NCBI RefSeq assembly: GCF_001656035.1
Contig: NZ_CP010029.1
Location: forward strand, 3,594,074-3,658,073
Source: Yersinia entomophaga
GTDB taxonomy: Bacteria; Pseudomonadota; Gammaproteobacteria; Enterobacterales; Enterobacteriaceae
Length of the DNA stretch: 64,000 nucleotides
Reading direction: 5' to 3'
Part shown: positions 16,290-28,103 of the stretch, one piece after another
Numbering within the stretch: position 1 is the first letter of the stretch
How the letters are laid out: every line of letters begins with the position of its first letter
Position numbers and translations under genes: made by a program
Notes under the pieces: model-generated
The model's database searches: none
Seen by the model: only the letters and a program-made list of their open reading frames with translations
Told to the model about the DNA's origin: nothing

Positions 16290-16665
16290 AGCAGAGATTT
16301 CAATTAAGCGCATGACTATATGCTTACCGCAACGGATAAAGCAGGGAACTCCGCCACAGCTCAGGGTTCAGTCACGATTGATGCAATCGGTCCACACTTG
16401 ACGTTGCAGATTTATTCGTCCAACGACATTTTTGTAGGAAATATTATCGGTAACGTTCGGCCGACTTTCTCTGGTCAGATGGATCCGGGTATTCGTATTA
16501 CCGTTTCTATTGCGGGGGGAACATATGATGTCATAGCGGATGAAGGAGGCGACTGGAGCCGCACAGTACCTGTTTCGCCAAGGATGACTCTTGGGATTAC
16601 GAGAATATCGCCGCGGATGTTGCCGGTATTACCCGTCTGAACCGCCAATATTTAGAGCCGCTGGA
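16290..16665 (+). pseudogene. Remnant of a large Ig-like-repeat surface adhesin
   Basis: The translated stretch AHDYMLTATDKAGNSATAQG followed by SVTIDAIGPHLTLQIYSSND and NVRPTFSGQMDPGIRITVSI matches one to two bacterial Ig-like repeats. These have the familiar TATDxAGN ends and the T-x-D-x-x-x-P joints of giant RTX/BapA-type adhesins. An in-frame stop precedes it, and a frameshift near 16600 separates the next repeat end (DYENIAADVAG in another frame). Only about 120 codons remain, with no secretion signal or membrane anchor, so this is debris. It borders the satellite's left attachment site. Confidence 0.65.
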
Positions 16666-17797
16666 ATGAACCAAGAGGTATGGACTTTGTGCGTCGCTAA
16701 GTTTGTAGGGTTTGTCTTTTGATTTAGCGCCTCGGATAGCCGTATTGGTTAACGGCATGAGTGTTCCTTACAATAAAGGGGTACATTATTGTTCGAACCG
16801 ATTATACCCTGTTTAGTACCCCGATAACGTTAGGCTGTAGCGGGTTTGAAAGGTCTGTTATGGGATGTGGTTTTAATTTAACTTGTTGTTTTAAATTGAA
16901 TAAATTTTTTTTGGGATGTATTGGGAAGGTGTCGTGGTGTCCCCGACTGGAATCGAACTTTTATCTTAATTACATGTTTTTAATGCTTATTTTTAATTTT
17001 AAGTTAATTGTTTATACATATCGCTATACGTTTATTTTCGGGCTTATAGCGATATGACTGATAATCAGTTTTCACATGACTAATTCTAATCGATAGAAAC
17101 TTCACGAATTTCTTGATTTTTACTTACTGTCCTTCCCTGTCCTTTATTAGTGTTCATTGCCCTTCAAAATCAGTCCCAAAAAATCAGTCACACAAGATAA
17201 ACTCATTGCCTGCTTTTTATACTAAAATCACTTGTTTTATTCCCGCAAAAAACTAGTAATCTAAGGGCGTCCGATAGACTCTTAAGCAAACCAATGGAGT
17301 ATTCAGTAAATAGTTGTTAATTTTACAAAGTGTTACATTTATTTTTTTTCAATAAATTTCAGCTTAATTAACTGAAATTTATATTAACTCATATTAACTC
17401 GATACGAATAAATACTAACTGATACTAAGTAATACCAACTCAATGATGAAAAACATTGGATATTTTTATTAAAAGGTAAAAACACAAGAAATAGTTTTGT
17501 TGGGAGTGCCAAGTCATGAACTTTACAGAAAGCATATTGCGTGTAAGTCTATAGGCATCCGAGGGGATTTAGTTGTATTGCTCTCAGATTATAGTTATTT
17601 ACGTTTCTTTACGAATGAGGCTGCTTATCCATATTTATCTATATTTATCAATATTCACTCTTGGCAGTACAAAAAATAACTACAAACCAGAGTGTGATTT
17701 GGCATAGTTCTCTAACCCTATATTTACATCGGCTAGGGGAAATGTAAGTCTAATAGTGTCTTCACACATTTATACAAGTCTATTAAAGGATAACTTT
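16666..17797. other. Non-coding junction: chromosome, attL, left end of satellite
   Basis: About 1.1 kb with no convincing gene. It contains the 24-bp attL copy at 16935-16958. Inside the island lies an AT-rich leader with iterated ATATTAACTC / ATACTAACT-type motifs at about 17385-17445, upstream of the AlpA-type gene. Frames at 16761-17057 and 17497-17679 lack ribosome sites and resemble nothing I know. Confidence 0.5.
16935..16958. repeat. attL: 24-bp direct repeat of the tRNA-Arg 3' end
   Basis: The 24 bases here are identical to 28029-28052, the CCA end plus acceptor/T-arm part of tRNA-Arg(CCU) read on the minus strand (starts TGGTGTCCCCGACTGG). No tRNA body follows on this side. Together the two copies delimit an insertion of about 11.1 kb, the usual result of tyrosine-integrase recombination at a tRNA 3' end. 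Confidence 0.92.
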
Positions 17798-18022
17798 ATG
17801 GAGCGGGATTCTATTGCCATAAATAATATGGCAAAAAGGTTAATACGGTTACCCGATGTGATGTCTATTACCGGGTTAAAACGTTCTACTATTTATTTCA
17901 AGATGAAAGAAGGGAACTTCCCTAACAATATCCCTATCGGAGAACGATCCGTTGCATGGGTAGAGGGGGAAGTAATTAATTGGATTGATGGAAATATTTC
18001 AAAGAGAGAAATGAGATGCTAA
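17798..18022 (+). CDS. AlpA-family transcriptional regulator
   Basis: 74 residues starting at ATG 17798 with AAAGGA nine to ten bases upstream. MAKRLIRLPDVMSITGLKRS followed by TIYFKMKEGNFPNNIPIGER and AWVEGEVINWID is the AlpA (MerR-like winged helix-turn-helix) fold, which in P4 (Vis) and cryptic islands controls excision and integrase or late promoters. It overlaps the next gene by 7 bases, so the two are translationally coupled. Its position at the head of the capsid operon suggests that it controls or is co-controlled with the structural genes. The frame extends to a GTG at 17756 without a ribosome site. Confidence 0.9.
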   Translation: MERDSIAINNMAKRLIRLPDVMSITGLKRSTIYFKMKEGNFPNNIPIGERSVAWVEGEVINWIDGNISKREMRC

Positions 18023-18870
18023 AAGAATTACCGTTAACTCCGCATGATGCCGAAATTAATGTGATATCAACGTATCAACCTATGTTGTTCACCCCTGAGC
18101 AGGGGGATGGTGGTTATGCGATTCGAGTAATAGAAATCTATCGGTTACATAACATGTTCCCATTGTTGGATAAATTCGAAGAATTAACGGGATATGCCGC
18201 ACCTAGGCTTGTTTGCACGCCAGATGAAATAAATATGTTAGTCGAGCGAGGACGTAAGATTAACCAACAGGAAGAAGTTAATGTAAGAACTATTGAAAAT
18301 GAATTAAACCTAGTCGGCCGTGAGCTGGGTAATGCTCAACGAGGAATAAGTAGTTTATCAAGTTACAATGGCAGTGTCCGTAGTTTAGTTGCTTCTGTTC
18401 AGGCAAAGTCTGAACTTACACAACGACGTTTAGCTGATGCCCAAGATAAACTAGCGGCTCGTAGAGGACTATTAGGGCTGTTACGTAGTCATGTTGAATT
18501 GATGCTGAGCCATAGTGTTAAAGGATTCAAAAATAAGATTATGGAGTTCTTACCATTAGATTCTTTTTCATCCAATACATACAAAGATGGTTGGAGTAGT
18601 ACTGGATTAAAATCACATGTATATGCATGGAATGAGCTAAATAAATTAGAGTTAGCACTGAAAGAGATCATATCTAGGTGCACCGTACCTACGGATAAGT
18701 ATTTAATTGCTCATGGCGGAGTTGAATTATCAAAATTAAAGAAAAAATATTATCAGCCTGAGTCAGAGGGAATGCGAGATTTTATGTCGGCTGATGATTT
18801 TTCTAAGTTAATGCTGAGTAAGGAATCATGGGCTAACAACAAGGTTAAAATTGCAAAGCAACATTTATAA
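18016..18870 (+). CDS. Coiled-coil protein upstream of the capsid gene, unknown (candidate scaffold/size factor)
   Basis: 284 residues, starting inside the alpA stop region and followed after 45 bases by the capsid gene. After a mixed N-terminal ~85 residues (VIEIYRLHNMFPLLDKFEEL) comes a long predicted coiled coil, about residues 88-170 (NQQEEVNVRTIENELNLVGR, QRRLADAQDKLAARRGLLGL). A helical C-terminus ends KLMLSKESWANNKVKIAKQHL. I do not recognise a family. Its helical character and its place before gpN recall P4 Sid (external size-determining scaffold) or an internal scaffold, but no direct sequence match to Sid is visible. Base composition is AT-rich like the capsid gene. Confidence 0.7.
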   Translation: MLKELPLTPHDAEINVISTYQPMLFTPEQGDGGYAIRVIEIYRLHNMFPLLDKFEELTGYAAPRLVCTPDEINMLVERGRKINQQEEVNVRTIENELNLVGRELGNAQRGISSLSSYNGSVRSLVASVQAKSELTQRRLADAQDKLAARRGLLGLLRSHVELMLSHSVKGFKNKIMEFLPLDSFSSNTYKDGWSSTGLKSHVYAWNELNKLELALKEIISRCTVPTDKYLIAHGGVELSKLKKKYYQPESEGMRDFMSADDFSKLMLSKESWANNKVKIAKQHL

Positions 18871-18915
18871 TAATTTATTAGAACTAACCCCTATATTAAA
18901 TAAAGGTTAAAAATA

Positions 18916-19926
18916 ATGGTCAGAGTTAATCCTCCTGCTATGGCGGGACAGTTTCATGCAAATTTTGTTGGTGGAATAAAATCACGATTTGATAGTGAGA
19001 AAAGTTTTTCAATATCGGAGTCAGCGGAGAATCAGTTGCGTATATCTATGCTGGAATCCGGTTGGATGATGAATAATATTACTTTATGGGATGTAGATGA
19101 AGAAGAAGGACAAAATATTGAAATTGGTGAATCTGCTTTACATACAGGACGAACTATTGAAGGACGTTTTAGCCGAGGATTAAAAATAGAGGGTTCTAAC
19201 TATTCACTCGCAGATACGGATTCTTGTGCTTCGCTTTCGTATCAACGAATGAGTGCCATTGCTAATGTTGGGGGTATTGAACATTTTACCCAAACTGTTT
19301 CTGATTTCTTCGGCATGGCTATTTCATTGGATATGCTGAGAATTGGTTTTAATGGTCAACGTATTTCTTATCCGACAGATCCAATTGCTAATCCTAAAGG
19401 TGAAGATGTCAATATAGGTTGGCACGCAATAGCCAAAGGATTTAATAACGGTTCTCAAGTTATAACTGACGCCATGACATTGGGGGAGGGCGGGGATTTC
19501 CCCCATTTGGATGCGTTGGCTAATCATATTATTACTGAAAAGATACCCGAAAGTTTTAGGGAAGATCCCCGTTTAGTGGTGATGGTAGGTGCAGAGTTAG
19601 CCGCAGCGGAACGGATGCGCTTATTTAACTCCGCAGATCGTCCGGCTGATATTGCAGCAGCGCAGATGTTAACGAGTTCGGTGGCTGGTCGTTTTGCTTT
19701 TGTTCCGCCATTTATGCCGGGTAAACGCTTGGTGGTGACCACATTGAGTAATCTACATATTTATACCCAAAAGATGAGTAGACGCTTTAGGGCTGAATTT
19801 ATTGATGAGCGCTGCGTGTATGAACACAGTTATTGGCGTAATGAAGGCTACGCGTTAGGTAATAATTCTCTGTATGCAGCAGTAGATGAAAATGCAATTA
19901 GCTTAGTGCAAAGGTCAGGTAGCTAA
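18916..19926 (+). CDS. P2-type major capsid protein (gpN-like)
   Basis: 336 residues. The order of motifs follows P2 gpN (357 residues). NFVGGIKSRFDSEKSFSISE and ENQLRISMLESGWMMNNITL correspond to the N-terminal delta domain region. SYQRMSAIANVGGIEHFTQT and ISLDMLRIGFNGQRISYPTD match LDFIMAGFNGVKRAETSD, ANPKGEDVNIGWHAIAKG matches NPMLQDVAVGWLQKY, and GEGGDFPHLDALANHII matches GKGGDYASLDALVMDA. FREDPRLVVMVGAELAA and the LSNLHIYTQKMSRRFRAEFI end match as well. It forms the HK97-fold shell. Start ATG with AAAGG upstream; its stop overlaps the protease start. In P2 the order is O then N; here N precedes O. A satellite encoding its own shell subunit is unusual for P4 relatives. Confidence 0.9.
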   Translation: MVRVNPPAMAGQFHANFVGGIKSRFDSEKSFSISESAENQLRISMLESGWMMNNITLWDVDEEEGQNIEIGESALHTGRTIEGRFSRGLKIEGSNYSLADTDSCASLSYQRMSAIANVGGIEHFTQTVSDFFGMAISLDMLRIGFNGQRISYPTDPIANPKGEDVNIGWHAIAKGFNNGSQVITDAMTLGEGGDFPHLDALANHIITEKIPESFREDPRLVVMVGAELAAAERMRLFNSADRPADIAAAQMLTSSVAGRFAFVPPFMPGKRLVVTTLSNLHIYTQKMSRRFRAEFIDERCVYEHSYWRNEGYALGNNSLYAAVDENAISLVQRSGS

Positions 19927-20447
19927 TGACAAATTCACAATTAACTACCGGCTGGATATGTGTGGCCACGGAAGGTGAGACAATAGACGGGCGTCAGATT
20001 GAATCCCAATGGTTGGCGGATATGGCCAAAATCTACGATGTGCGCACCTACACGGCGCTGATTTGGGAAGAGCATTTACGTGATAGGGATAATTTAGGGG
20101 AAGTGCTGGCGCTGCGTAGCGACGTACAGAACGGTATTACCCATCTTTATGCCCGAATCCGCCCTACGGCCAAGCTGGTGAGTTTCAATGAGCAGGGGCA
20201 AAAGCTGTTTTGCTCCATCGAAGTGGAAGAAGATTTTCAGGACAAAGGTCATTTTTATTTAAGTGGTTTGGCGGTTACTGATAGCCCTGCCAGCATTGGC
20301 ACTGACCGGTTACGTTTTAGTGCTAACCGTTCTTATTTTTCTAAGCGTGGTGTTAAAGCAAAAATAAGTAAGCCAAGGGAATTTAGTTTATCAGACGCCA
20401 CTATTATGGCTGGTAAAGGCTGGGTTTCCGCAATAGCGCTGAGTTAA
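19926..20447 (+). CDS. Capsid maturation protease, gpO-like, lacking the scaffold domain
   Basis: 173 residues overlapping the capsid stop (TAATG). It matches the N-terminal protease half of P2 gpO: GETIDGR (D21), WEEHLRDRDNLGEV (H50), LFCSIEVEEDF (S97) and HFYLSGLAVTDSPASIGTDR line up with the gpO Asp/His/Ser triad (D19, H48, S107) and its LVGLAVTDDPASLGTE strand. P2 gpO is 284 residues, and its C-terminal half is the internal scaffold. Here the protein ends about 40 residues after the protease core, so that scaffold is absent. Inferred role: cleaving satellite (or helper) capsid proteins during maturation. The gene is intact and followed by a terminator. Confidence 0.88.
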   Translation: MTNSQLTTGWICVATEGETIDGRQIESQWLADMAKIYDVRTYTALIWEEHLRDRDNLGEVLALRSDVQNGITHLYARIRPTAKLVSFNEQGQKLFCSIEVEEDFQDKGHFYLSGLAVTDSPASIGTDRLRFSANRSYFSKRGVKAKISKPREFSLSDATIMAGKGWVSAIALS

Positions 20448-20470
20448 TTCTTATATTACAGATAAGAAAT

Positions 20471-20490
20471 ACCCGGCTGCTGGGCCGGGT
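20471..20490 (+). terminator. Stem-loop after the capsid/protease operon
   Basis: Seven-base stem ACCCGGC/GCCGGGT with a six-base loop, 23 bases after the protease stop. T-tract is poor (ATGGTTCT), so it may be a weak intrinsic terminator. It separates the late-type operon from the convergent RHH gene. Confidence 0.5.
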
Positions 20491-20621
20491 ATGGTTCTCT
20501 ACTATCGGAAAATAACAATGATAAATAATTCAATTAATGCTGATTTGACTATCTCACTCACCGTTATTTCCGTCAATAAAATAGGTTCGGATATATACGG
20601 TTATATTACTGACAAAAGTAT

Positions 20622-20831
20622 TTATGCTTTAGGTTCTATGCCACGGCGTTTTAATTCCTGCCGGGCTAGCTCTTTAAACCAATTACCAAGGCTTACGCCA
20701 TCTTTAGCCGCTTCCGCATTAAGTTGTTCACGCAGTTCTGGCGCGATACGAATTTGGAATGTTGGCGATAGACCTTCACCTTTCGGGCTTTTATCTCGTT
20801 TTATAGTTGACACGTACGTACATAACCTCAT
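20622..20831 (-). CDS. Ribbon-helix-helix (Arc/MetJ-type) repressor
   Basis: 69 residues from ATG 20829-20831 (or 63 from GTG 20811-20813, or 80 from ATG 20864). The core SPTFQIRIAPELREQLNAEA followed by AKDGVSLGNWFKELARQELK is a typical ribbon-helix-helix with the antiparallel strand TFQIRI. It runs opposite to the capsid operon and divergent from the replication genes. An inverted repeat of ACGTACGT elements overlaps its 5' end (20812-20858), as expected for an autoregulated repressor that also controls the rightward Icd/primase operon. This control is inferred from arrangement only. Confidence 0.8.
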   Translation of the reverse strand: MRLCTYVSTIKRDKSPKGEGLSPTFQIRIAPELREQLNAEAAKDGVSLGNWFKELARQELKRRGIEPKA

Positions 20832-20858
20832 AAGCTGTCTTTCGTTAGGTACGTACGT
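20812..20858. promoter_or_regulatory. ACGTACGT inverted-repeat operator between repressor and replication genes
   Basis: Left arm ACGTACGTACATAAC (20812-20826) and right arm GTTAGGTACGTACGT (20844-20858) are inverted copies with one mismatch, separated by 17 bases. Each arm carries the self-complementary ACGTACGT. RHH repressors bind tandem or inverted short boxes, and this one overlaps the start of the RHH gene and precedes the rightward operon. It is the most regular regulatory element on the island. Confidence 0.75.
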
Positions 20859-20885
20859 TAACACGGCGTACCGACAAAATACAGC

Positions 20886-20920
20886 GGCCCGTCAAGGTGC
20901 TACCAACACCAAGCCGGGCC
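20886..20920 (+). ncRNA. Structured leader before the Icd-like gene (P4 CI-RNA-like candidate)
   Basis: The arms GGCCCG (20886-20891) and CGGGCC (20915-20920) enclose a second hairpin GGTG (20896-20899) / CACC (20907-20910). This gives a two-tier stem-loop just upstream of the small Icd/Ash-like ORF. In P4 the equivalent position at the start of the replication operon encodes the CI RNA, which causes premature termination and immunity. The structure is visible; the functional analogy is inference. Confidence 0.45.
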
Positions 20921-20948
20921 TGACCATCATGTTAGAGGAACTAACGCA

Positions 20949-21119
20949 ATGGCTACGTCAAAGTGTACCTACATCTTTGCGGCGATCAACCGCACCCAAC
21001 AGAAAATTAGCCCTGTCATGCTGCATATCACCGCAGAGAATGAGAAGACGGCCCGCCGCCGTTATGCCGCAGATTACATACTGCTTTTTGCCGGGCGTTT
21101 GCCTGTGCAGGAGGCATAG
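20949..21119 (+). CDS. Icd/Ash-like small protein (host cell-division inhibitor family)
   Basis: 56 residues: begins MATSKCTYIFAAINRTQQKI and ends YAADYILLFAGRLPVQEA. The YIFAA-x-N-R start, a central VMLHITAENEKTARR and the FAGRLPVQE end are hallmarks of the Ash/Icd-like proteins encoded at the head of the replication operon of P1- and P4-type elements, named from the P1 Icd division inhibitor. GAGGAA lies about nine bases before the ATG. One base separates its stop from the next gene, whose ribosome site (CAGGAGGC) lies inside this ORF. Confidence 0.85.
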   Translation: MATSKCTYIFAAINRTQQKISPVMLHITAENEKTARRRYAADYILLFAGRLPVQEA

Positions 21120-21120
21120 C

Positions 21121-21339
21121 ATGACGACTAAATATAATTTAGCGCAGGGAAGTGTAGATAAAGTTCTACGGGCCATGCTGGTTTCAGAATTAATGAGAGA
21201 GTTATTGTACTCAAAAAATGAAACCCCACAGCCTCATGTTAATTCAGTCAATATAGCGGCTGTCTTTGATTGTATTTATGAAGATTTAGATTCTGTATTG
21301 GATAACGAATTTGACAGGGGAAAGAATGAAAGCCGTTAA
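21121..21339 (+). CDS. Small satellite protein of unknown function
   Basis: 72 residues, MTTKYNLAQGSVDKVLRAML onward, acidic and probably helical (VNSVNIAAVFDCIYEDLDSV). The AGGAGG seven to eight bases upstream and tight coupling to the Icd-like gene support translation. A much longer frame (from 20491) covers it but overlaps the repressor and leader, so I take the ATG at 21121. Small ORFs in this position of P4-like islands are common and uncharacterised. Confidence 0.65.
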   Translation: MTTKYNLAQGSVDKVLRAMLVSELMRELLYSKNETPQPHVNSVNIAAVFDCIYEDLDSVLDNEFDRGKNESR

Positions 21340-21390
21340 TTTATTCCCGTCACTGTTATTTCTTTTCATATTTACAATGGAGACGCCGCG

Positions 21391-24075
21391 ATGAGCAGTC
21401 AATTTGTCTCTGAAACGCTGCAAGCGGCCCGTGGGCGTTGGCCGCATATTTTGCCAGCGTTGGGTATTACCGTGCCGGATAATGGTAAACACGGCGCTTG
21501 CCCGAAGTGTGGCGGTAGTGATCGTTTCCGCTTTGATGATCAAGGGGGCCGTGGCACATGGATTTGTAGCCAGTGCAGTCATGGTGATGGGCTGGATCTC
21601 ATTCGTTTGGTTTCTGGCAACGGGGCATTTCAGGCGGCAACTGAGGTGGCCAAGGCGCTAGCCTTACCGAATGCACCGCAGGAAGCGATTAAGCCTGCCA
21701 GAAATGAAATCCCCGAAGAGCGAAAAAAGGCGATGGTGGCCAAGGCTTACCACGCTTTGCTAGCCCATTGCAGCAGCGGAGAAAACAGTTATCTGGCTGA
21801 TAAGGGGCTGTCTGGCCATAGCCAATCCATTACGCAGGATGTTCATAAAACGGGAGGGATGGACTTCCCGGCAGGTTCTTTGCTGTTACCGCTAACTGAT
21901 ATCGACGGCAAGTTAACCGGTGGCCAGCTTATCAGCCCGTTAGGTGACAAGCGGTTATTGCCCAATACCGTACTTAAAGGGGCGTTTATTGCGGTTCACC
22001 CATTAGAGGCAGGGGATAACCCGGAGCTGGTTGTTATCACTGAGGGTTATGCCACAGCTTTAACGCTGGATATGTTAACTGATGGGCTGGTTGTGGCGGC
22101 AGTCGCGGCTAACAACCTGCCGAACGTGGCGCAACACCTGCGCCATAAATGGCCCGATGCGCGGTTGATTATCGCCGGGGATAATGATTTTGATGATGGT
22201 AAAGAGAACACCGGCAAGCAGTGGGCCGAGAAAGCCGCTAAAGCAGTAGATGGTTGGGTATCACTACCACCAACCCGTCATAAAGCAGATTGGGATGATT
22301 ACCGCCGTGATAACGGGCTGGAACGGGCTAAAGAAGCCTTTCGGGAAGAAATGATCCTGTTTGGTAAAGGCAAAACCAAACTGCCGCAGGGGTTCCGCTT
22401 AACGCAGGAATATCTTTGGTATGACAAGTTGGTGAATAAGTCTGATGGTGATACCGAAATCCGCAATATCAAACTGTGCAGCCCGGTAAGAGTCACGGCG
22501 ATTACCTGCGATTCTGACGGCGGCAACTATGGCCGCTTGCTGGAATGGGAAGACACCAACGGTATCAGCCGTAAGTGGGCCATGCCGATGGAGATGCTCA
22601 GTAGCAGCGGGGAAGAGCTGCGGCGCATTCTGTTGAGTAATGGCCTGTCTTATATCAGTACCACCGGGCAGGCGCGGGCGCATTTGATGGAATACCTTTC
22701 CCTGTGCAAGCCAGAGCGCAAGGTAACTTGTGTTAATAAAACCGGCTGGCATGGTTCGGTTTATGTGCTGCAAGACGAAGTGATCGGCGTTGGGGCTGAG
22801 TCGGTAATCTTACAAACCGCCAGCGTACAGGGGCGGGATTTCAGGACTGCCGGAACACTGGACGAATGGCGCGATCAGGTTTCCCGTTATTGCGTCGGTA
22901 ATGGCCGGGTGGCGTTTTCGGTCAGTCTCTCTTTTGCCTCACCACTGTTAAAATTGGTCGGTGTGGGCGGCGGTGGTTATCACCTGAAAGGGGAATCAAC
23001 GGACGGTAAAACCACCACGATGAAAGTGGCAGCTTCAGTTTGTGGTGGCACTGACTTCTGGCATACGTGGCGCTCCACCGGTAACGCGCTGGAGGGCACC
23101 GCCAGCCGCCGCAATGATGCCACCCTAATGTTAGACGAAATACGGGAAGTGGATGGCAGAGAGGCCGGGAATATCGCCTATATGCTGGCGAATGGCCAAG
23201 GGAAAGCGCGGGCGCGTACTGACGGCAGTTTGCGCGAGGCTAATCGCTGGTGTCTGTTGTTTCTGTCTACTGGTGAATTGTCGTTAGTCGAACATGCGGC
23301 CAACGCCGGAGAGCGTACTTATGCCGGGGTGGAAGTACGGATGGTACAGATCCCCAGTGATTCCGGTAAGCATGGTGTATTTGAAGAGCTGCACGGTTTT
23401 ACCGGAGGTAAAGCCCTGTCGGAGCACTTGGAACAGGCGGTTGCTTCCTGCTATGGCGAGCCGTTCCGTGCTTGGTTGCGGCTGTTAACCGCAGACCTGA
23501 CCGGCATGACCAGCAAGGCCAAGATACTGCTAAAAGAATACACCCGGCTGCTTACCCCGGAGAACGCCGGTAATCAGGTGGGCCGCGCAGTTACCCGTTT
23601 TGCACTGGTGGCAATGGCCGGAGAGTTAGCCACACAAGTGGGGATCACCGGCTGGCCAGAGGGCGAGGCGTTCCGGGCAGCACAAACCTGCCTTAATGCG
23701 TGGATGGGGGATCGTGGCCACACCGCCAATCAGGAAGACGCCGCCGCACTGGAACAGGTGAAAGAGTTCATTACCCGTAATCAGTTCAGCCGCTTTGCTG
23801 ACTGGCATGACGAGCGCAGCCGCCCGGCTAACATGGTGGGCTTCCGGCGAGTGGATAAAGGCAATAACAAAGAAGATGCGGTGACAACTTTCTTTATTTT
23901 GGCCACCGGTTGGAAAGAAATCTGCAAGGGATTTGATGCCAAGAAAGTGGCTCAACTCTGCGTCAAGGCCGGTTATCTCGATGTGCCAGAGGATGCCCGG
24001 ACACAGAAAAACATTCGCCTGCCAGAAATGGGGCTGAAACGGGTCTATCAGTTTAATAGCACGGTTTTAGGTTAA
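21391..24075 (+). CDS. P4 alpha-like primase-helicase (zinc-ribbon primase, TOPRIM, DUF927)
   Basis: 894 residues. The N-terminal zinc finger (C37, C40, C59, C62: ACPKCGGSDRFRFDD...WICSQCSHGDGLDLI) is the P4 alpha/phage primase type. A TOPRIM-like module follows (VITEGYATAL near 214, IIAGDNDFDD near 259). The C-terminal half is a DUF927 ATPase with Walker A GESTDGKTTTMK (near 534-545) and Walker B ATLMLDEIRE (near 576). The enzyme should prime and unwind at the satellite's own origin and allow replication independent of host DnaB/DnaG, as in P4. Ribosome site GGAGAC. The repeat cluster directly downstream is the likely target. GC content is higher than in the capsid segment. Confidence 0.93.
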   Translation: MSSQFVSETLQAARGRWPHILPALGITVPDNGKHGACPKCGGSDRFRFDDQGGRGTWICSQCSHGDGLDLIRLVSGNGAFQAATEVAKALALPNAPQEAIKPARNEIPEERKKAMVAKAYHALLAHCSSGENSYLADKGLSGHSQSITQDVHKTGGMDFPAGSLLLPLTDIDGKLTGGQLISPLGDKRLLPNTVLKGAFIAVHPLEAGDNPELVVITEGYATALTLDMLTDGLVVAAVAANNLPNVAQHLRHKWPDARLIIAGDNDFDDGKENTGKQWAEKAAKAVDGWVSLPPTRHKADWDDYRRDNGLERAKEAFREEMILFGKGKTKLPQGFRLTQEYLWYDKLVNKSDGDTEIRNIKLCSPVRVTAITCDSDGGNYGRLLEWEDTNGISRKWAMPMEMLSSSGEELRRILLSNGLSYISTTGQARAHLMEYLSLCKPERKVTCVNKTGWHGSVYVLQDEVIGVGAESVILQTASVQGRDFRTAGTLDEWRDQVSRYCVGNGRVAFSVSLSFASPLLKLVGVGGGGYHLKGESTDGKTTTMKVAASVCGGTDFWHTWRSTGNALEGTASRRNDATLMLDEIREVDGREAGNIAYMLANGQGKARARTDGSLREANRWCLLFLSTGELSLVEHAANAGERTYAGVEVRMVQIPSDSGKHGVFEELHGFTGGKALSEHLEQAVASCYGEPFRAWLRLLTADLTGMTSKAKILLKEYTRLLTPENAGNQVGRAVTRFALVAMAGELATQVGITGWPEGEAFRAAQTCLNAWMGDRGHTANQEDAAALEQVKEFITRNQFSRFADWHDERSRPANMVGFRRVDKGNNKEDAVTTFFILATGWKEICKGFDAKKVAQLCVKAGYLDVPEDARTQKNIRLPEMGLKRVYQFNSTVLG

Positions 24076-24103
24076 TACACTTACGTGAGTCTTATTTAGA
24101 ACT

Positions 24104-24292
24104 GGTAACACTGGTAACAGAGGTAACAACCATAAGCCGCAAGGGGTAGAGCTGTTACCAGTAGTAGAGGGCTATTGGTAACACTGGTAACAGAAATCAG
24201 CCTGTTACCACTGGTTACCAGTTGATAATGCCTAGTGGTAACTAATTTTATCTATATAAATCAATGGTGTTACCAGCGTTACCACTGATACC
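24104..24292. other. Iteron cluster, candidate replication origin
   Basis: About a dozen copies of GGTAACA or its complement TGTTACC (some with one change) in under 200 bases. Forward copies at 24104, 24113, 24122, 24177, 24186 and 24237; inverted copies at 24153, 24203, 24268, 24277 and 24286; and a GGTTACC at 24213. P4 origins (ori and crr) consist of repeated octamers (GGTGAACA-like) bound by alpha, so a related array next to the alpha-like gene is most simply its origin. The region is otherwise AT-rich near 24241-24265. Confidence 0.72.
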
Positions 24293-24386
24293 AGTTACAG
24301 ACGTAAGAGACAATATAAAAACGAGTCAGTTCGAGGCTTATTTTCTGGCCGGCGGTTCTGGCTTTAAATAGAGGGGCCATATCAAT

Positions 24387-24734
24387 ATGCGAGTTTTTAA
24401 AGTTATTTGTCCAGATTGCGGTACACCCGCTCATATTCGTAAAACTAACCGCAAGCATAGCCATATAGCGGATCTCTATTGTGCCTGTACCAATGTTGAA
24501 TGTGGCCATACCTTTGTGATGAATGCGACCTTTTCCCATACCCTTAGCCCCAGTGCGTTAACGCATAGCCGGTTAATTAAGGACTTGGTAGACCATATAT
24601 CACCGCAGGAACGGCAAGAGGCTATCCGGCTATTGCAAGTGGCCCATAAAGATGAGGAACAACAGCAGGCAATCAGTGACGCAAAACCGCAAATTACGCG
24701 CAGGGTGAGCAAGGATTACGTGACCAACCGTTAG
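24387..24734 (+). CDS. Ogr/Delta-type zinc-finger activator
   Basis: 115 residues. The N-terminal CPDC...CTNVECGHTF pattern (C8, C11, C34, C39) matches P2 Ogr and P4 Delta, the activators of P2 late promoters. The C-terminal 60 residues (SPQERQEAIRLLQVAHKDEE) are an extension of unknown role. By homology it would switch on late genes of a P2-like helper and perhaps the island's own capsid operon, giving the satellite control of helper morphogenesis. Ribosome-site candidate AGGGG ten bases upstream. Confidence 0.9.
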   Translation: MRVFKVICPDCGTPAHIRKTNRKHSHIADLYCACTNVECGHTFVMNATFSHTLSPSALTHSRLIKDLVDHISPQERQEAIRLLQVAHKDEEQQQAISDAKPQITRRVSKDYVTNR

Positions 24735-25313
24735 CCCGGTGTTACCACTCTGGCGCTCGATTTTCTTCCCGGCCCTGTACTGTGTTTTTCAGTTAGCCCA
24801 AAATGACCTTGCCCCGCGAAGCCACGCCCGGCAAGGGTTTCAACATTTCCCCCACGCTATTATCTCACCCAACTTTTCCCATCCTCGCCACGTAAAATAA
24901 AATACTTGTTTTAAATCATATGATTAAAACTTTAAGCGGTAAGGTTAGAAAAAGCGAAACTGAAATTTAGTGAAATTCTTTTCAATCTTTTCAGTTGGGA
25001 TTATCAGCCAGAGCCCCAGCCACGGCGCGGGCTGGCGCTAGGGTTTGTAGGAATATAAAACTGAAATAAGTTTATAAAGCAAAGTGTGCAGGCGGGTGCG
25101 GTGTAGTGCCATTTCCGTCATATTTATATTTTTCCATGAAACGATAGAGAAATTCAGTCAATTAGTTTTATCAACTTGAATTGATTATTTGATCCGTGTC
25201 ACAGCAGAAAATTTACTTGCAATGTGCATGATTTTTATACTTGAAATTGCTTTCAATAAGAATTCTTAATGAGTAATGTAACTTACTATTACTGAAAATA
25301 AATCGAGGTGATT
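24735..25313. other. Non-coding satellite region with GC-rich palindromes
   Basis: 579 bases without a gene between the activator and the defence pair. Two GC-rich palindromes stand out in AT-rich surroundings. CCTTGCC (24807-24813) / GGCAAGG (24830-24836) has a nested GCG/CGC, and CCAGCC (25016-25021) / GGCTGG (25030-25035) lies about 180 bases further on. Such elements could be a packaging site, terminator or transcript structure; no match to the P2/P4 cos core was visible. Confidence 0.45.
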
Positions 25314-25643
25314 ATGTCGTTACAGCTCTTAAGACAAGCCATTCAGGCTCGTAAACCAATTTCATTTGAATATAATAAGCCTGGAAAGATTCCGGGTGAA
25401 CGAATTGGTAATCCTCATGCTATTTTTATTATGAGAAAAAAAGACCAATCTGAGTCTACAAAAGTACATATAGTTCAAGTGGGCGGTGTCACAGATAGCG
25501 CACCTAATTTCCCAGAGTTTAGACTGTTTGATATTGCTGAAATTTCAAACATTAAAATTATTGATGCAGGTGCTCCATTTGCAATTGATGGTGGCTATAA
25601 TCCTCATTGGGATGGATATAAGAATGTGATTGCGAAGGTATAA
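25314..25643 (+). CDS. WYL-like small protein paired with Shedu
   Basis: 109 residues from ATG 25314, with CGAGG nine to ten bases upstream. SLQLLRQAIQARKPISFEYN, RIGNPHAIFIMRK, HIVQVGGVTDSAPNFPEFRL and FDIAEISNIKII follow the strand order of a WYL (SH3-like ligand-binding) domain. There is no helix-turn-helix. Its stop lies two bases before the Shedu start, so they form one unit. WYL proteins often regulate defence operons by sensing nucleic acid or a nucleotide; here it could act as a direct partner or sensor for Shedu, which is inference. AT-rich like the next gene. Confidence 0.6.
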   Translation: MSLQLLRQAIQARKPISFEYNKPGKIPGERIGNPHAIFIMRKKDQSESTKVHIVQVGGVTDSAPNFPEFRLFDIAEISNIKIIDAGAPFAIDGGYNPHWDGYKNVIAKV

Positions 25644-25644
25644 T

Positions 25645-26652
25645 ATGAGCATTGACCATTCATATTTGATTGGAAGAGATGATGTTAATGATTTGGTATT
25701 AAATATATCAGGTCTTGATGCAGACTCTAGGGATGTATCTACGTTAAGTGCAAATATTTTTGCTCATTGCACTAGCACTGGATCTCCAAAATTTACTTGC
25801 CAATTAAATATTGGTCATTTGCAAAGTCTTTATCAACACCTTTCACAATATAGTGTTATTCGTGATACTGAGTCTGTAAGTACTGGTCGTTTTATAGAGA
25901 TCCAAAGCAATCATGAGGAAATAATGAGAGTTTTGGAGCATTCGGATAACACTTCTTTAGTATTAGCATTACAGCACATCGTAAGTAATAGACTTACAAA
26001 TACTGATATTAATACGATTTTAGGGCGAAAAGATGCTCTTGATGAGTATGAGCGAATGTATGAAAATGCTAATTATTATAATGAAATAGAATGGCAGCGT
26101 TTTTTTGAAAGGAATGAGTGGATATTTGGGTATGGTTTAAATTATAAATATTTAAAAATCCTACAGAGAGAAGCACACATCTCTCATACAGATCTCAATG
26201 GGTCTAATGATGTTATAACGGATTTTTTATTATCAGACTCTAGATTTACTAAAATTGTTGAACTGAAAACACCTACAACAAACTTATTTGTCAATCGCCA
26301 GAATAGAGCTGATTCTTGGCGCTTATCAAGTGAGCTTACTGATGCTGTTAGTCAAATATTGGCACAAAAGGCAAATTGGGAAATAGAAAGCCAAAGAAGT
26401 AACTACACCTCTGATGGGGATTTGATAAGAGAAGAAACACATGATGCCGAATGTATATTAGTAATCGGATCTATATCTTCTATTAGTGGGGGTGACCGCG
26501 AAAAGTTAATAAAAAGAAAAACACTAGAGCTTTATCGGCGTAATTTAAAAAGTATTAACATTCTGTTTTATGATGAACTATTAGAACGCGCTCGATTTAT
26601 TGTAAGAAGCGCCGAAATTATTGAAAATGCCATTGGTGAAATTTTAGAATAA
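25645..26652 (+). CDS. sduA: Shedu anti-phage nuclease SduA (DUF4263)
   Basis: 335 residues. Residues about 1-125 are a variable N-terminal region. Residues about 145-330 are the DUF4263 nuclease core: EWQRFFERNEWIFGYGL, then a PD-(D/E)xK-like core with D193 in VITDFLL and E206/K208 in IVELKTPTTNLF, then the SQILAQK helix. Shedu is a single-protein defence system that nicks or degrades phage DNA. Start ATG 25645 with AAGG upstream; a frame to 25630 overlaps the partner gene. It sits between the delta-like gene and integrase, a place where satellites carry interchangeable defence cargo. Likely targets are phages that compete with the satellite or its helper. Confidence 0.88.
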   Translation: MSIDHSYLIGRDDVNDLVLNISGLDADSRDVSTLSANIFAHCTSTGSPKFTCQLNIGHLQSLYQHLSQYSVIRDTESVSTGRFIEIQSNHEEIMRVLEHSDNTSLVLALQHIVSNRLTNTDINTILGRKDALDEYERMYENANYYNEIEWQRFFERNEWIFGYGLNYKYLKILQREAHISHTDLNGSNDVITDFLLSDSRFTKIVELKTPTTNLFVNRQNRADSWRLSSELTDAVSQILAQKANWEIESQRSNYTSDGDLIREETHDAECILVIGSISSISGGDREKLIKRKTLELYRRNLKSINILFYDELLERARFIVRSAEIIENAIGEILE

Positions 26653-26701
26653 ACATCAGGCGGCATTCTTATTTCTGTACCATCAATATACAAATATGGT
26701 G

Positions 26702-27865
26702 CTAGTATAAATTATCACTATACCACTGCAACATATCCCTACGTCCTTCAAGATATTGTGCATGGTTATAAGTTCCACGGATGGAATTTTTATCAACATG
26801 GGCAAGCTGGGTTTCAATCCATGCACTGTTATAGCCTTTCTCATGCAAGATAGTGCTCATGGTGTGCCGGAAACCGTGACCGGTGGCCCTGCCGTGATAA
26901 CCCAGCATCTTGATCACCTTATTGATACTCGCCTCACTCATCGGCTTACCGGCATCATTGCGGCCGGGGAACACTAACTTATAATTCCCTGTCAGCATCT
27001 TTAGCTTTTCAAGGATCGCCAAGGCTTGTGCAGAAAGTGGCACAAGGTGAGGGCGGCGCTTCTTCATCCGTTCTTTAGGAACCTCCCACAAGGCATTATC
27101 CAGATCAAATTCAGACCATTCAGCGGCCCGCAGTTCTATAGTTCTTACGCCCGTGAGCATTAACAACTGGGTGGCGTATTTGGTCAGTTTGCTGCCTTTA
27201 TAGTTATCCAATGCCTGAATAAATTCGGGTAACTCACTTTCAGTCAGGAAAGGGTAATGGCCATTCTTGGGGCGGTTTAGTGCGCTGGCCAGATCCGGGG
27301 CTGGGTTATAAGTGGCCCGCCCGGTCACTACGGCATAGCGGAAGACTTCACCACAGCGCCGCCTGATTTTCCCGGTGAGTTCCAGTGCGCCACGTTTTTC
27401 GATACGTTGCAGAACGGCCAGCAGTTCCAACGGCGCGATCTGGTCAATTGGGCGCTTGCCGATATAAGGAAATACGTTGTTATCGAAGCCACGCATAACC
27501 GTATCCGCATATTCTGGTGTCCAAGTGGGTAATTTGGAGGTGTGCCATTCTTTGGCGATAGCCTCGAACGTGTTGGCGTGGGAATGCTGTAGGGCTATCT
27601 TTTCAGCTTTGCGGGCATCACTGGGGTTAATGCTGTTGGCCACTTGTGCTCTGGCCTCATCGCGTTTCTTACGAGCATCGGCTAATGAAATATCACCATA
27701 CAGGCCAAAAGATATCATTTTAGGCTTCCCGGCAAAGCGGTAACGGAAGCGCCAACCCTTGGAGCCATTGGGTTCAATCAATAGGGATAGGCCATTGCCA
27801 TCATTCAAGGTATAGGCTTTATCTTTGGCTTTAGCCCGGCGAATTTGAATATCTGTGAGTAGCAT
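26702..27865 (-). CDS. int: P4-type tyrosine integrase
   Basis: 387 residues. N-terminal DUF4102 arm-binding domain (MLLTDIQIRRAKAKDKAYTL, GLSLLIEPNGSKGWRFRY), SAM-like core-binding domain and catalytic domain. The catalytic residues are R in TGVRTIELRAAEW, H-x-x-R in GHGFRHTMSTIL, and the tyrosine nucleophile in TYNHAQY. The ATG at 27863-27865 gives the usual family start; the frame extends to 27916 without a family match. It reads away from the tRNA whose 3' end it recombines, the usual arrangement, and the 160 bases between it and the tRNA should hold the arm sites and its promoter. Confidence 0.95.
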   Translation of the reverse strand: MLLTDIQIRRAKAKDKAYTLNDGNGLSLLIEPNGSKGWRFRYRFAGKPKMISFGLYGDISLADARKKRDEARAQVANSINPSDARKAEKIALQHSHANTFEAIAKEWHTSKLPTWTPEYADTVMRGFDNNVFPYIGKRPIDQIAPLELLAVLQRIEKRGALELTGKIRRRCGEVFRYAVVTGRATYNPAPDLASALNRPKNGHYPFLTESELPEFIQALDNYKGSKLTKYATQLLMLTGVRTIELRAAEWSEFDLDNALWEVPKERMKKRRPHLVPLSAQALAILEKLKMLTGNYKLVFPGRNDAGKPMSEASINKVIKMLGYHGRATGHGFRHTMSTILHEKGYNSAWIETQLAHVDKNSIRGTYNHAQYLEGRRDMLQWYSDNLY

Positions 27866-28028
27866 GTGTATAGCCCTAAAGATCGAACCTAGTGTTATAC
27901 GCAATCCTATACACATATGTGTTTAGATTCCACTAAACATTATGGGGTCTCTTTAGACGCCAAATGTCTATTTATCGTTGTTTTAACAGGATTTTATGGA
28001 CTTAGTGGGATGTGCTGAGAAGTGCTAA
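27866..28028. promoter_or_regulatory. Integrase promoter and arm-site region
   Basis: AT-rich 163 bases between the integrase start and attR, with small repeated TATAC-type motifs (about 27895-27920, partly palindromic CACATATGTG at 27912-27921). This is where integrase arm sites and the int promoter normally lie; individual sites cannot be assigned. Confidence 0.4.
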
Positions 28029-28052
28029 TGGTGTCCCCGACTGGAATCGAAC
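28029..28052. repeat. attR: 24-bp direct repeat inside tRNA-Arg 3' end
   Basis: Identical to attL at 16935-16958. The repeat covers the 3' CCA, acceptor strand and part of the T-arm, so integration leaves the tRNA gene intact on this side. Confidence 0.92.
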
Positions 28053-28103
28053 CAGTAACTAGCCCTTAGGAGGGGCTTGTTATATCCGTTTAACTACGGG
28101 GAC
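28029..28103 (-). tRNA. argW: tRNA-Arg(CCU)
   Basis: 75 nucleotides including an encoded CCA. On the minus strand the acceptor GTCCCCG pairs with CGGGGAC before ACCA, the anticodon arm is AGCCC-CTCCTAA-GGGCT with anticodon CCT, and the T-arm contains GGTTCGATTCC. The sequence is close to E. coli argW, which is likewise a prophage attachment site and lies in the same neighbourhood (dsd genes on one side, yfdC on the other). Confidence 0.97.

Follow-up and report, generated by a model that had tools for sequence, protein, structure and literature searches.

How can a phage satellite be packaged if it carries genes for a major capsid protein and a head protease, and none for a portal, a terminase or a tail? 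This question is raised by an 11,094-bp island of Yersinia entomophaga, located between exact 24-bp direct repeats at positions 16935-16958 and 28029-28052 of a 64-kb stretch of contig NZ_CP010029.1 (positions 3,594,074 to 3,658,073; hereafter, the window), which is contained in a complete 4.28-Mb genome. A first-pass annotation of the window had described the island as a P4-like satellite that makes its own P2-type shell and takes the remaining particle components from a P2-like helper. The computational analysis reported here places the island in a widespread, apparently undescribed enterobacterial family of capsid-carrying phage satellites, which share a cohesive-end site (cos) with phages of the ESSI-2 type. 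With moderate confidence, packaging is envisaged as a chain in which the satellite's own capsid protein, gpN, would form a small shell on a putative scaffold protein, here called coil, while the terminase, portal, completion protein and tail of the helper would do the rest.

A Recurrent Gene Layout

The head-related genes of the island are adjacent to each other on the plus strand and encode coil, an all-helical protein of 284 aa that is a putative scaffold or size-determining partner of gpN (18016..18870), a gpN-like major capsid protein of 336 aa (18916..19926; P2-family PF05125, E 1.2e-70), and a short gpO reduced to its protease domain and missing the C-terminal scaffold part (19926..20447; PF05929, E 5.2e-44). 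The P4-like genes on the same strand encode an AlpA-type regulator/excisionase (17756..18022; PF05930, E 3.4e-22), an alpha-like DUF927 primase-helicase with a zinc ribbon and Toprim (21391..24075; PF06048, E 6.9e-92), and an Ogr/Delta late activator with one zinc finger (24387..24734; PF04606, E 1.1e-18). A putative replication origin between the latter two is marked by an iteron cluster (24104..24283) with 11 GGTAAC/GTTACC hexamers, compared with 51 across the whole 64 kb, and a tyrosine integrase (26702..27916; PF00589, PF22022, PF13356) is encoded on the minus strand near the right end. The direct repeats form the left and right attachment sites, attL (16935..16958) and attR (28029..28052), the latter inside the 3′ end of the integration target, tRNA-Arg(CCT) (28029..28103, minus strand). 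The repeats at tRNA-Arg, the iterons, the intactness of the integrase, AlpA, primase and Ogr/Delta genes, and the presence of gpN-like and gpO-like genes had all been claimed from the window alone, and these claims were borne out, the repeats being exact copies and the six genes open frames with Pfam matches.

The suggestion that the family may exist in other genomes also proved correct: the same order occurs in 17 further distinct loci, which excludes a chance arrangement. Six relatives came from a gpN scan of bacterial genome contigs, and a profile search with coil was positive in 5 of 394 sampled genomes of the order, in 3 among 25 from the genus, and in 13 among 392 from the family (each count including the window's own genome), the family genomes spanning 12 of 154 sampled genera. 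In the resulting comparison of 18 distinct loci (duplicates removed, namely, L025, L031 and L040, which repeat the contigs of L014, L009 and L013), coil is located directly upstream of gpN in all 18, and the primase and delta genes are likewise universal, with AlpA found in 15 loci, the integrase in 14 (the contigs of L009 and L011 end too early), and gpO in 10. The relationship to P4 extends to the primase, since the first 311 of the 777 residues of P4 alpha match 20 of 20 loci (these 18 plus two Escherichia coli islands) at 31-42% identity, including 40% for the N-terminal third of the primase of the present island.

The absences are equally uniform. No tblastn match (threshold E 1e-3, all overlapping matches kept) was obtained in the 18 loci and the two E. 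coli islands with 17 P2 and 13 ESSI-2 late proteins, including the portal, both terminase subunits, completion and tail proteins, or with P4 Sid, Psu and epsilon, in agreement with the first-pass annotation, in which the present island had no recognizable sid or psu and no portal, terminase or tail gene. Portals or terminases of the HK97 type were not named by Pfam or PHROGs among the window open reading frames (ORFs) scanned, no HK97-type query having been run across the loci.

In E. coli, a query with the coil-gpN pair of one strain gave matches in 449 of 5,426 complete genomes, at least 80% of the query being present in 441. Strains EC958 and SE15 and one of type O25b:H4-ST131 are among the matches listed, in which the annotation of these genes does not go beyond "P2 family phage major capsid protein" and "hypothetical protein." Two E. 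coli islands were inspected in full; both proved to be complete satellites and have the cos core of the family, one at tRNA-Arg next to yfdC and the other at tRNA-Thr after proA.

Capsid Protein and Protease

Where intact, satellite gpN is 330-337 aa long. All 18 satellite rows form one clade in the gpN tree (support 100/100), apart from seven phage, prophage and helper gpNs, and this clade adjoins the ESSI-2 type when the tree is midpoint-rooted; identity between satellite and helper-type gpN is 48-53%. Both head genes are under purifying selection, with ratios of nonsynonymous to synonymous substitution rates (dN/dS) of 0.06-0.09 for gpN in four pairs (two very close pairs, which differ by few changes, gave 0.18 and 0.29; the pair L027/L041 was left out for its internal stop) and of 0.03-0.10 for gpO in five pairs.

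Residues D19 and H48 of P2 gpO are presumably members of its catalytic triad; together with S107, they correspond to D21, H50 and S97 of satellite gpO, and this triad is invariant in five satellite and four phage sequences. Satellite gpO stops at residue 173. According to the available text of PMC7552001, residues 195-284 of P2 gpO serve as an internal scaffold, and gpN is cleaved after residue 31. The gpN residue at this cleavage site, F31, is retained by all 17 satellites compared (L041 was left out of the residue table), by four helper-type sequences and by P2. Because F31 and the triad are kept, a satellite shell could undergo the same trimming as an ordinary head, but because gpO ends at residue 173, the scaffold has to be supplied by something else. 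Satellite gpN is least like helper gpN in its N-arm (16% identity versus 40-62% elsewhere), although this arm is also the most variable part when helpers are compared with each other (46%) or satellites with each other (38%), and the sir loop, which is bound by P4 Sid, shows an ordinary identity of 41%. This combination hints at a scaffold acting from inside the shell rather than a Sid-like external one.

The protease is less constant than the capsid protein. No gpO was found in L013, L027, L041-L044, L046, L047, L111 and L112, which keep gpN and coil, and the eight gpO-less islands placed in the gpN tree are a single clade, so that the protease is either dispensable or supplied by the helper. 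The earlier statement that the element provides its own capsid and protease therefore stands for the present island, where both genes are intact and under purifying selection, and for the family it needs the amendment that the protease is optional.

These data bear on the possibility that the island is a decayed P2-family prophage in which capsid genes persist by accident. Both gpN and gpO are Peduoviridae genes, and genes are broken in some members (coil in L011, gpO in L012, gpN in L041 and alpha in L047), as such a history would predict. However, the gpN-gpO order in the satellites is the reverse of that in P2 and ESSI-2, the primase is related to that of P4, one layout is maintained in 18 loci, the satellite gpNs form one clade instead of being scattered among phage gpNs, and dN/dS is low. 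Decay is thus extremely improbable, and the island is regarded, as originally proposed, as a satellite and a member of a recurrent family.

A Cohesive-End Site Shared With ESSI-2-Type Phages

A noncoding block of ~165 bp located 3′ of delta (24956..25120, plus strand) shows conservation in each of the 17 loci that extend far enough (L009 was omitted from the cos alignment, its contig ending first). The block is 87% identical over 151 bp to phage vB_YenM_324 and 78% identical over 148 bp to Cronobacter phage ESSI-2, and the ESSI-2 match stops precisely at the end of the linear ESSI-2 record. That record has an identical 15 nt at its start and end, the same form as the annotated cohesive ends of the P2 record, and these are the last 15 nt of a 19-nt core (25088..25106, plus strand) that the 17 satellites all carry without a mismatch and that ESSI-2 and YenM_324 also contain.

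The core was exact in 15 of 15 satellite genomes and occurred in 65 of 392 sampled genomes, a reversed-pattern control giving 0 in each case. Among 24 further core sites with new loci, 18 are at most ~1.5 kb from an ESSI-2-type terminal baseplate gene, 2 are beside satellite genes and 4 are beside neither. Viral contigs hold at least 80 core loci; among the matches listed, 67 have the baseplate gene within 3 kb, 5 have satellite genes and 8 have neither. Two satellite genomes, G399 and G616, also contain a prophage whose portal, terminase, head and tail genes are of the ESSI-2 type, the genes seen covering all but its far end.

Mean identity over the whole cos region is 74% between satellites, 75% between helpers and 74% between satellite and helper, and 90 satellite-helper pairs average 71% versus 58% for shuffled sequences, with overlapping ranges. 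Since whole-region identity is a blunt measure, the claim of a shared site rests on the exact core and on BLAST E-values. On this sequence evidence, the predicted helper is of the ESSI-2/YenM_324 type and not P2 itself, and packaging of the satellite through the shared cos is very probable. The P2-like helper of the first-pass annotation is thereby refined: packaging by a member of the Peduoviridae is well supported by the shared cohesive end, the matching phages being of the ESSI-2/YenM_324 type.

A P2 cos was considered for the island and rejected, the best match to the P2 19-mer (13/19) being at chance level; the corresponding values for two resident P2-type prophages are 15/19 (perhaps intragenic) and 16/19. 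These P2-family prophages (contig C1, ~2017000-2042000 and 2200000-2232000; L004-L008) have full-length gpN and gpO, their gpN matching that of the island at just 23-27%. The P2-like cos (16/19) of the second is located near its portal gene, so that one genome holds two cos types. No satellite contig with terminal repeats was seen among the at least 80 IMG/VR loci listed, many of which are cut contig pieces.

A Candidate Scaffold Partner

The coil protein is modeled as all-helical with a long hairpin (predicted local distance difference test score, pLDDT, 90; predicted template modeling score, pTM, 0.83). It had no match in Pfam, PHROGs or phage records, none below E 0.02 among solved structures by sequence, and none below E 0.09 in a viral fold library. 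A pattern scan of viral contigs for coil gave none that was confirmed; two viral contigs with coil (L161 and L162) were brought in via the cos scan. The gene has dN/dS values of 0.11-0.21 in three pairs and 0.37 in one saturated pair.

Evolution of coil closely follows that of gpN. Across 18 loci (16 comparison loci plus the two E. coli islands, omitting L011 and L047 and keeping L041), pairwise distances correlate at r = 0.934 for coil-gpN and 0.941 for primase-delta, with cross-correlations of 0.69-0.73. With primase held constant, the coil-gpN correlation is 0.865 (0 of 5000 permutations as high), compared to 0.114 for delta-gpN. A comparison of the present island with that of Y. aldovae gives a similar picture, as the backbone is 91-100% identical per 200-bp step and positions 18000-20200 are only 58-82% identical. 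It thus seems that one cassette, made up of coil, gpN and the beginning of gpO, has been exchanged, and such swaps of coil-gpN between islands perhaps follow variants of the helper. Its position, modeled helical fold and co-evolution with gpN make coil a scaffold candidate.

Element Size and Proposed Packaging Route

For 10 of the 14 islands anchored at a tRNA, the longest repeat allowed a length to be assigned, and these islands are 11,009-12,163 bp long (mean, 11,549 bp) with varying cargo; for L045, a shorter alternative repeat would give 14,411 bp. For comparison, P4 is 11,624 bp and ESSI-2 is 28,765 bp. Scaling a 29-kb head of triangulation number T=7 by (4/7)^1.5 gives, by our own estimate, ~12.5 kb, and a T=4 head would fit.

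The narrow size range is relevant to whether the capsid genes serve transmission at all. The gpN and coil proteins might instead poison helper heads to protect the host, with the island moving rarely or in large heads. The presence of a Shedu defense gene in the island is in line with this idea, as are reports that satellites often block their helpers (available text of PMC6893505 and PMC9122126). It is nonetheless improbable as the sole role, since a cohesive end that is exact in 17 of 17 loci, a length of 11.0-12.2 kb in 10 loci, and occurrence in 12 of 154 genera point to packaging in a size-limited head.

In the proposed route, the satellite would be excised by its own integrase and AlpA and replicated by its own DUF927 primase at the neighboring iterons, and Delta, by analogy with P4, would probably answer or drive late transcription. 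Helper terminase would then recognize the satellite copy of cos and load the ~11.5-kb genome via the helper portal into a small shell, probably T=4, of the satellite's own gpN, built on coil in place of the missing scaffold part of gpO. The N-arm of gpN would be trimmed by the satellite protease, or by helper gpO in the gpO-less clade, and the helper head-completion protein and tail would complete a particle able to transduce the island. A more specific version, in which these satellites are an old, separate family with a split head, a T=4 shell made exclusively of satellite gpN on the coil scaffold being docked on the helper portal, filled by the helper terminase via the shared cos and sealed by helper components, is given about an even chance.

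The strongest competitor is mixed assembly, in which satellite gpN and coil would be built into the procapsids of the helper alongside its own gpN and so make the shell small. Such assembly has been suggested for the capsid homolog Ccm of SaPIbov5 with a cos phage, Ccm being needed for small capsids and unable to form capsids alone or to replace the helper capsid protein (available text of PMC5052747). Satellite gpN is still about half identical to helper-type gpN (48-53%), and no portal was found in 18 of 18 loci, both of which would suit such a role; the absence of gpO from one gpN clade is compatible with an own shell and with a mixed one. Nevertheless, gpN is full length, under purifying selection, and retains its cleavage residue, the satellites aligned have their own protease with an intact triad, and the N-arm is unlike that of the helper. 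Mixed assembly is accordingly considered a possible though rather unlikely alternative.

Several observations weigh against an own shell assembled with helper parts. Besides the behavior of Ccm, gpO is unfound in 8 of 18 loci, and individual genes are broken, with an internal deletion of coil (L011:407-1007), an internal stop in gpN (L041:9616-10590), a frameshift in gpO (L012:10983-11493) and a primase that matches over the first third only (L047:7049-7963). For coil, no fold match supports the scaffold assignment: hhalign of its profile with P4 Sid gave a probability of 0.2%, at a sensitivity that would miss a structural analog too diverged in sequence, and the 50 structural matches listed are generic coiled coils, Sid not being among them. 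The genome of the window has a single cos core, the one inside the island, and because there is no second exact core, no cognate helper is resident. Finally, the classical Delta/Ogr box is TGT-N12-ACA, and its exact sites in the island (19266, 24408 and 27027) do not include one before the capsid genes; annotated P2 sites themselves do not fit the exact motif, which is thus not diagnostic of Delta control.

Integration Sites, Cargo and Other Features

A tRNA-Arg or tRNA-Thr gene adjoins the island in 12 of 18 loci, namely, tRNA-Arg in the present island, L010, L012, L024, L030 and L045 and tRNA-Thr in L013, L014, L027, L041, L042 and L044; none adjoins it in the sequence examined for L009, L011, L026, L043, L046 and L047, some of these contigs or stretches being cut. 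An Rfam scan gave nothing above the gathering score except tRNA. Just outside attL, an N-terminal piece of another integrase (16597-16758) is 53% identical to the island integrase, which suggests that this tRNA had received an earlier insertion or a tandem one. On viral contig IMGVR_UViG_2874084528_000002 (L143, L252), a gene 83% identical to P4 alpha accompanies a capsid satellite, perhaps as two satellites in tandem. Loci L103 and L104, which have the cos site beside delta and are without coil, look like remnants.

The cargo between cos and the integrase gene differs by island (25308-26652 here; L012:16505-17874; L013:15977-17494; L112:15434-17287) and adjoins cos in most of them, like the P4 hotspot. 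In the present island, it comprises a small WYL-like protein (25308..25643, plus strand; PF13280 at 20.9 bits, below the cut-off of 21.8) and the Shedu antiphage protein SduA (25630..26652, plus strand), whose C-terminal domain, which defines Shedu defense, was detected by both PF14082 (E 2.7e-27) and PADLOC (SduA, E 2.4e-194). Shedu is also found in Pantoea, with a UG14-type defense reverse transcriptase in Franconibacter and sce7725/sce7726 in E. coli. Along with the shared cos region and the conservation of the upstream coil gene, the SduA gene is a feature beyond those of the first-pass annotation.

An Icd-like gene had also been proposed, for which no support was obtained: ORF 20491-21339 contains no Pfam family, and its only similarity to the Ash/Icd ORF found in a relative is a 49-aa stretch (20958-21104, 36%) aligned with residues 138-186, the PF10554 domain of that ORF covering 31-140. 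Relatives do have an Icd gene; in the present island its slot is occupied on the opposite strand by a small Arc/HicB-like DNA-binding protein (20622..20864, minus strand; phrog_228, PF05534), which shows 98% identity in L009 and L030.

Comparison With Known Satellites

Among the open-licence PMC papers listed in literature searches (subscription papers and outside preprints lying beyond their scope), none has a title or abstract opening that describes this family, and the available portions of PMC8628076, PMC7552001, PMC6893505, PMC11389934, PMC9122126, PMC10690885 and PMC5052747 mention no element of the P4 kind that carries a capsid gene of the P2 type.

The resemblance to P4 is extensive, comprising an integrase gene at a tRNA, AlpA, a primase with Toprim and zinc ribbon that resembles P4 alpha in its N-terminal part and is adjoined by iterons, Ogr/Delta, a helper cos copied into the satellite, variable defense cargo between cos and int, and a size of ~11.6 kb. 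In contrast to P4, the family has no recognizable sid or psu and instead encodes its own gpN, coil and, often, gpO; the helicase part of its primase is DUF927 rather than the D5_N/DUF5906/Pox_D5 of P4 alpha; and Ogr/Delta has one finger in the present island, compared to two matched stretches in P4 Delta. Its cos is common to ESSI-2-type phages and not to P2, pointing to a different helper group. No counterpart of P4 epsilon was matched, and small ORFs without a derepression-family match occupy its place in relatives. ESSI-2 and YenM_324 (Seongnamvirus and Tresduoquattuorvirus) share the 19-nt cos core, the ESSI-2 record has the 15-nt redundancy, and theirs is the nearest phage gpN; unlike the satellites, they are full phages of 29 kb that encode a portal, a terminase and a tail, and their gpO keeps the C-terminal part.

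With capsid-forming phage-inducible chromosomal islands (cf-PICIs), the family has in common a satellite-encoded major capsid protein and head protease and the use, here predicted, of helper tails. However, cf-PICIs encode a portal, connectors, both terminase subunits and HNH (available text of PMC10690885), and no match to a P2/ESSI-2-type portal, connector or terminase was obtained in the 20 loci of the present family. Ccm of SaPIbov5 and the capsid-like protein of PmCI172 are likewise satellite-encoded homologs of a helper capsid protein, and Ccm makes small heads with a cos helper; over the modeled fold, Ccm shares ~19% identity with the capsid protein of its helper (available text of PMC5052747), as opposed to ~50% for satellite gpN. 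Satellite gpN has a co-evolving partner and often a protease.

P4, with no capsid gene, and cf-PICIs, with a whole head, are the two ends of the satellite range. If the proposed route is correct, the present family represents a middle form, in which the capsid protein and scaffold come from the satellite and the portal, terminase and tail from the helper, making it possible to test by what means a portal can work with a capsid protein that is foreign to it and what determines head size when Sid is missing. The occurrence of at least 80% of the coil-gpN pair in 441 of 5,426 complete E. coli genomes gives these questions practical weight. The family is P4-like in its predicted packaging and resembles a cut-down cf-PICI in capsid supply, and defining features of both were not found in it (sid and psu of P4; portal and terminases of cf-PICIs).

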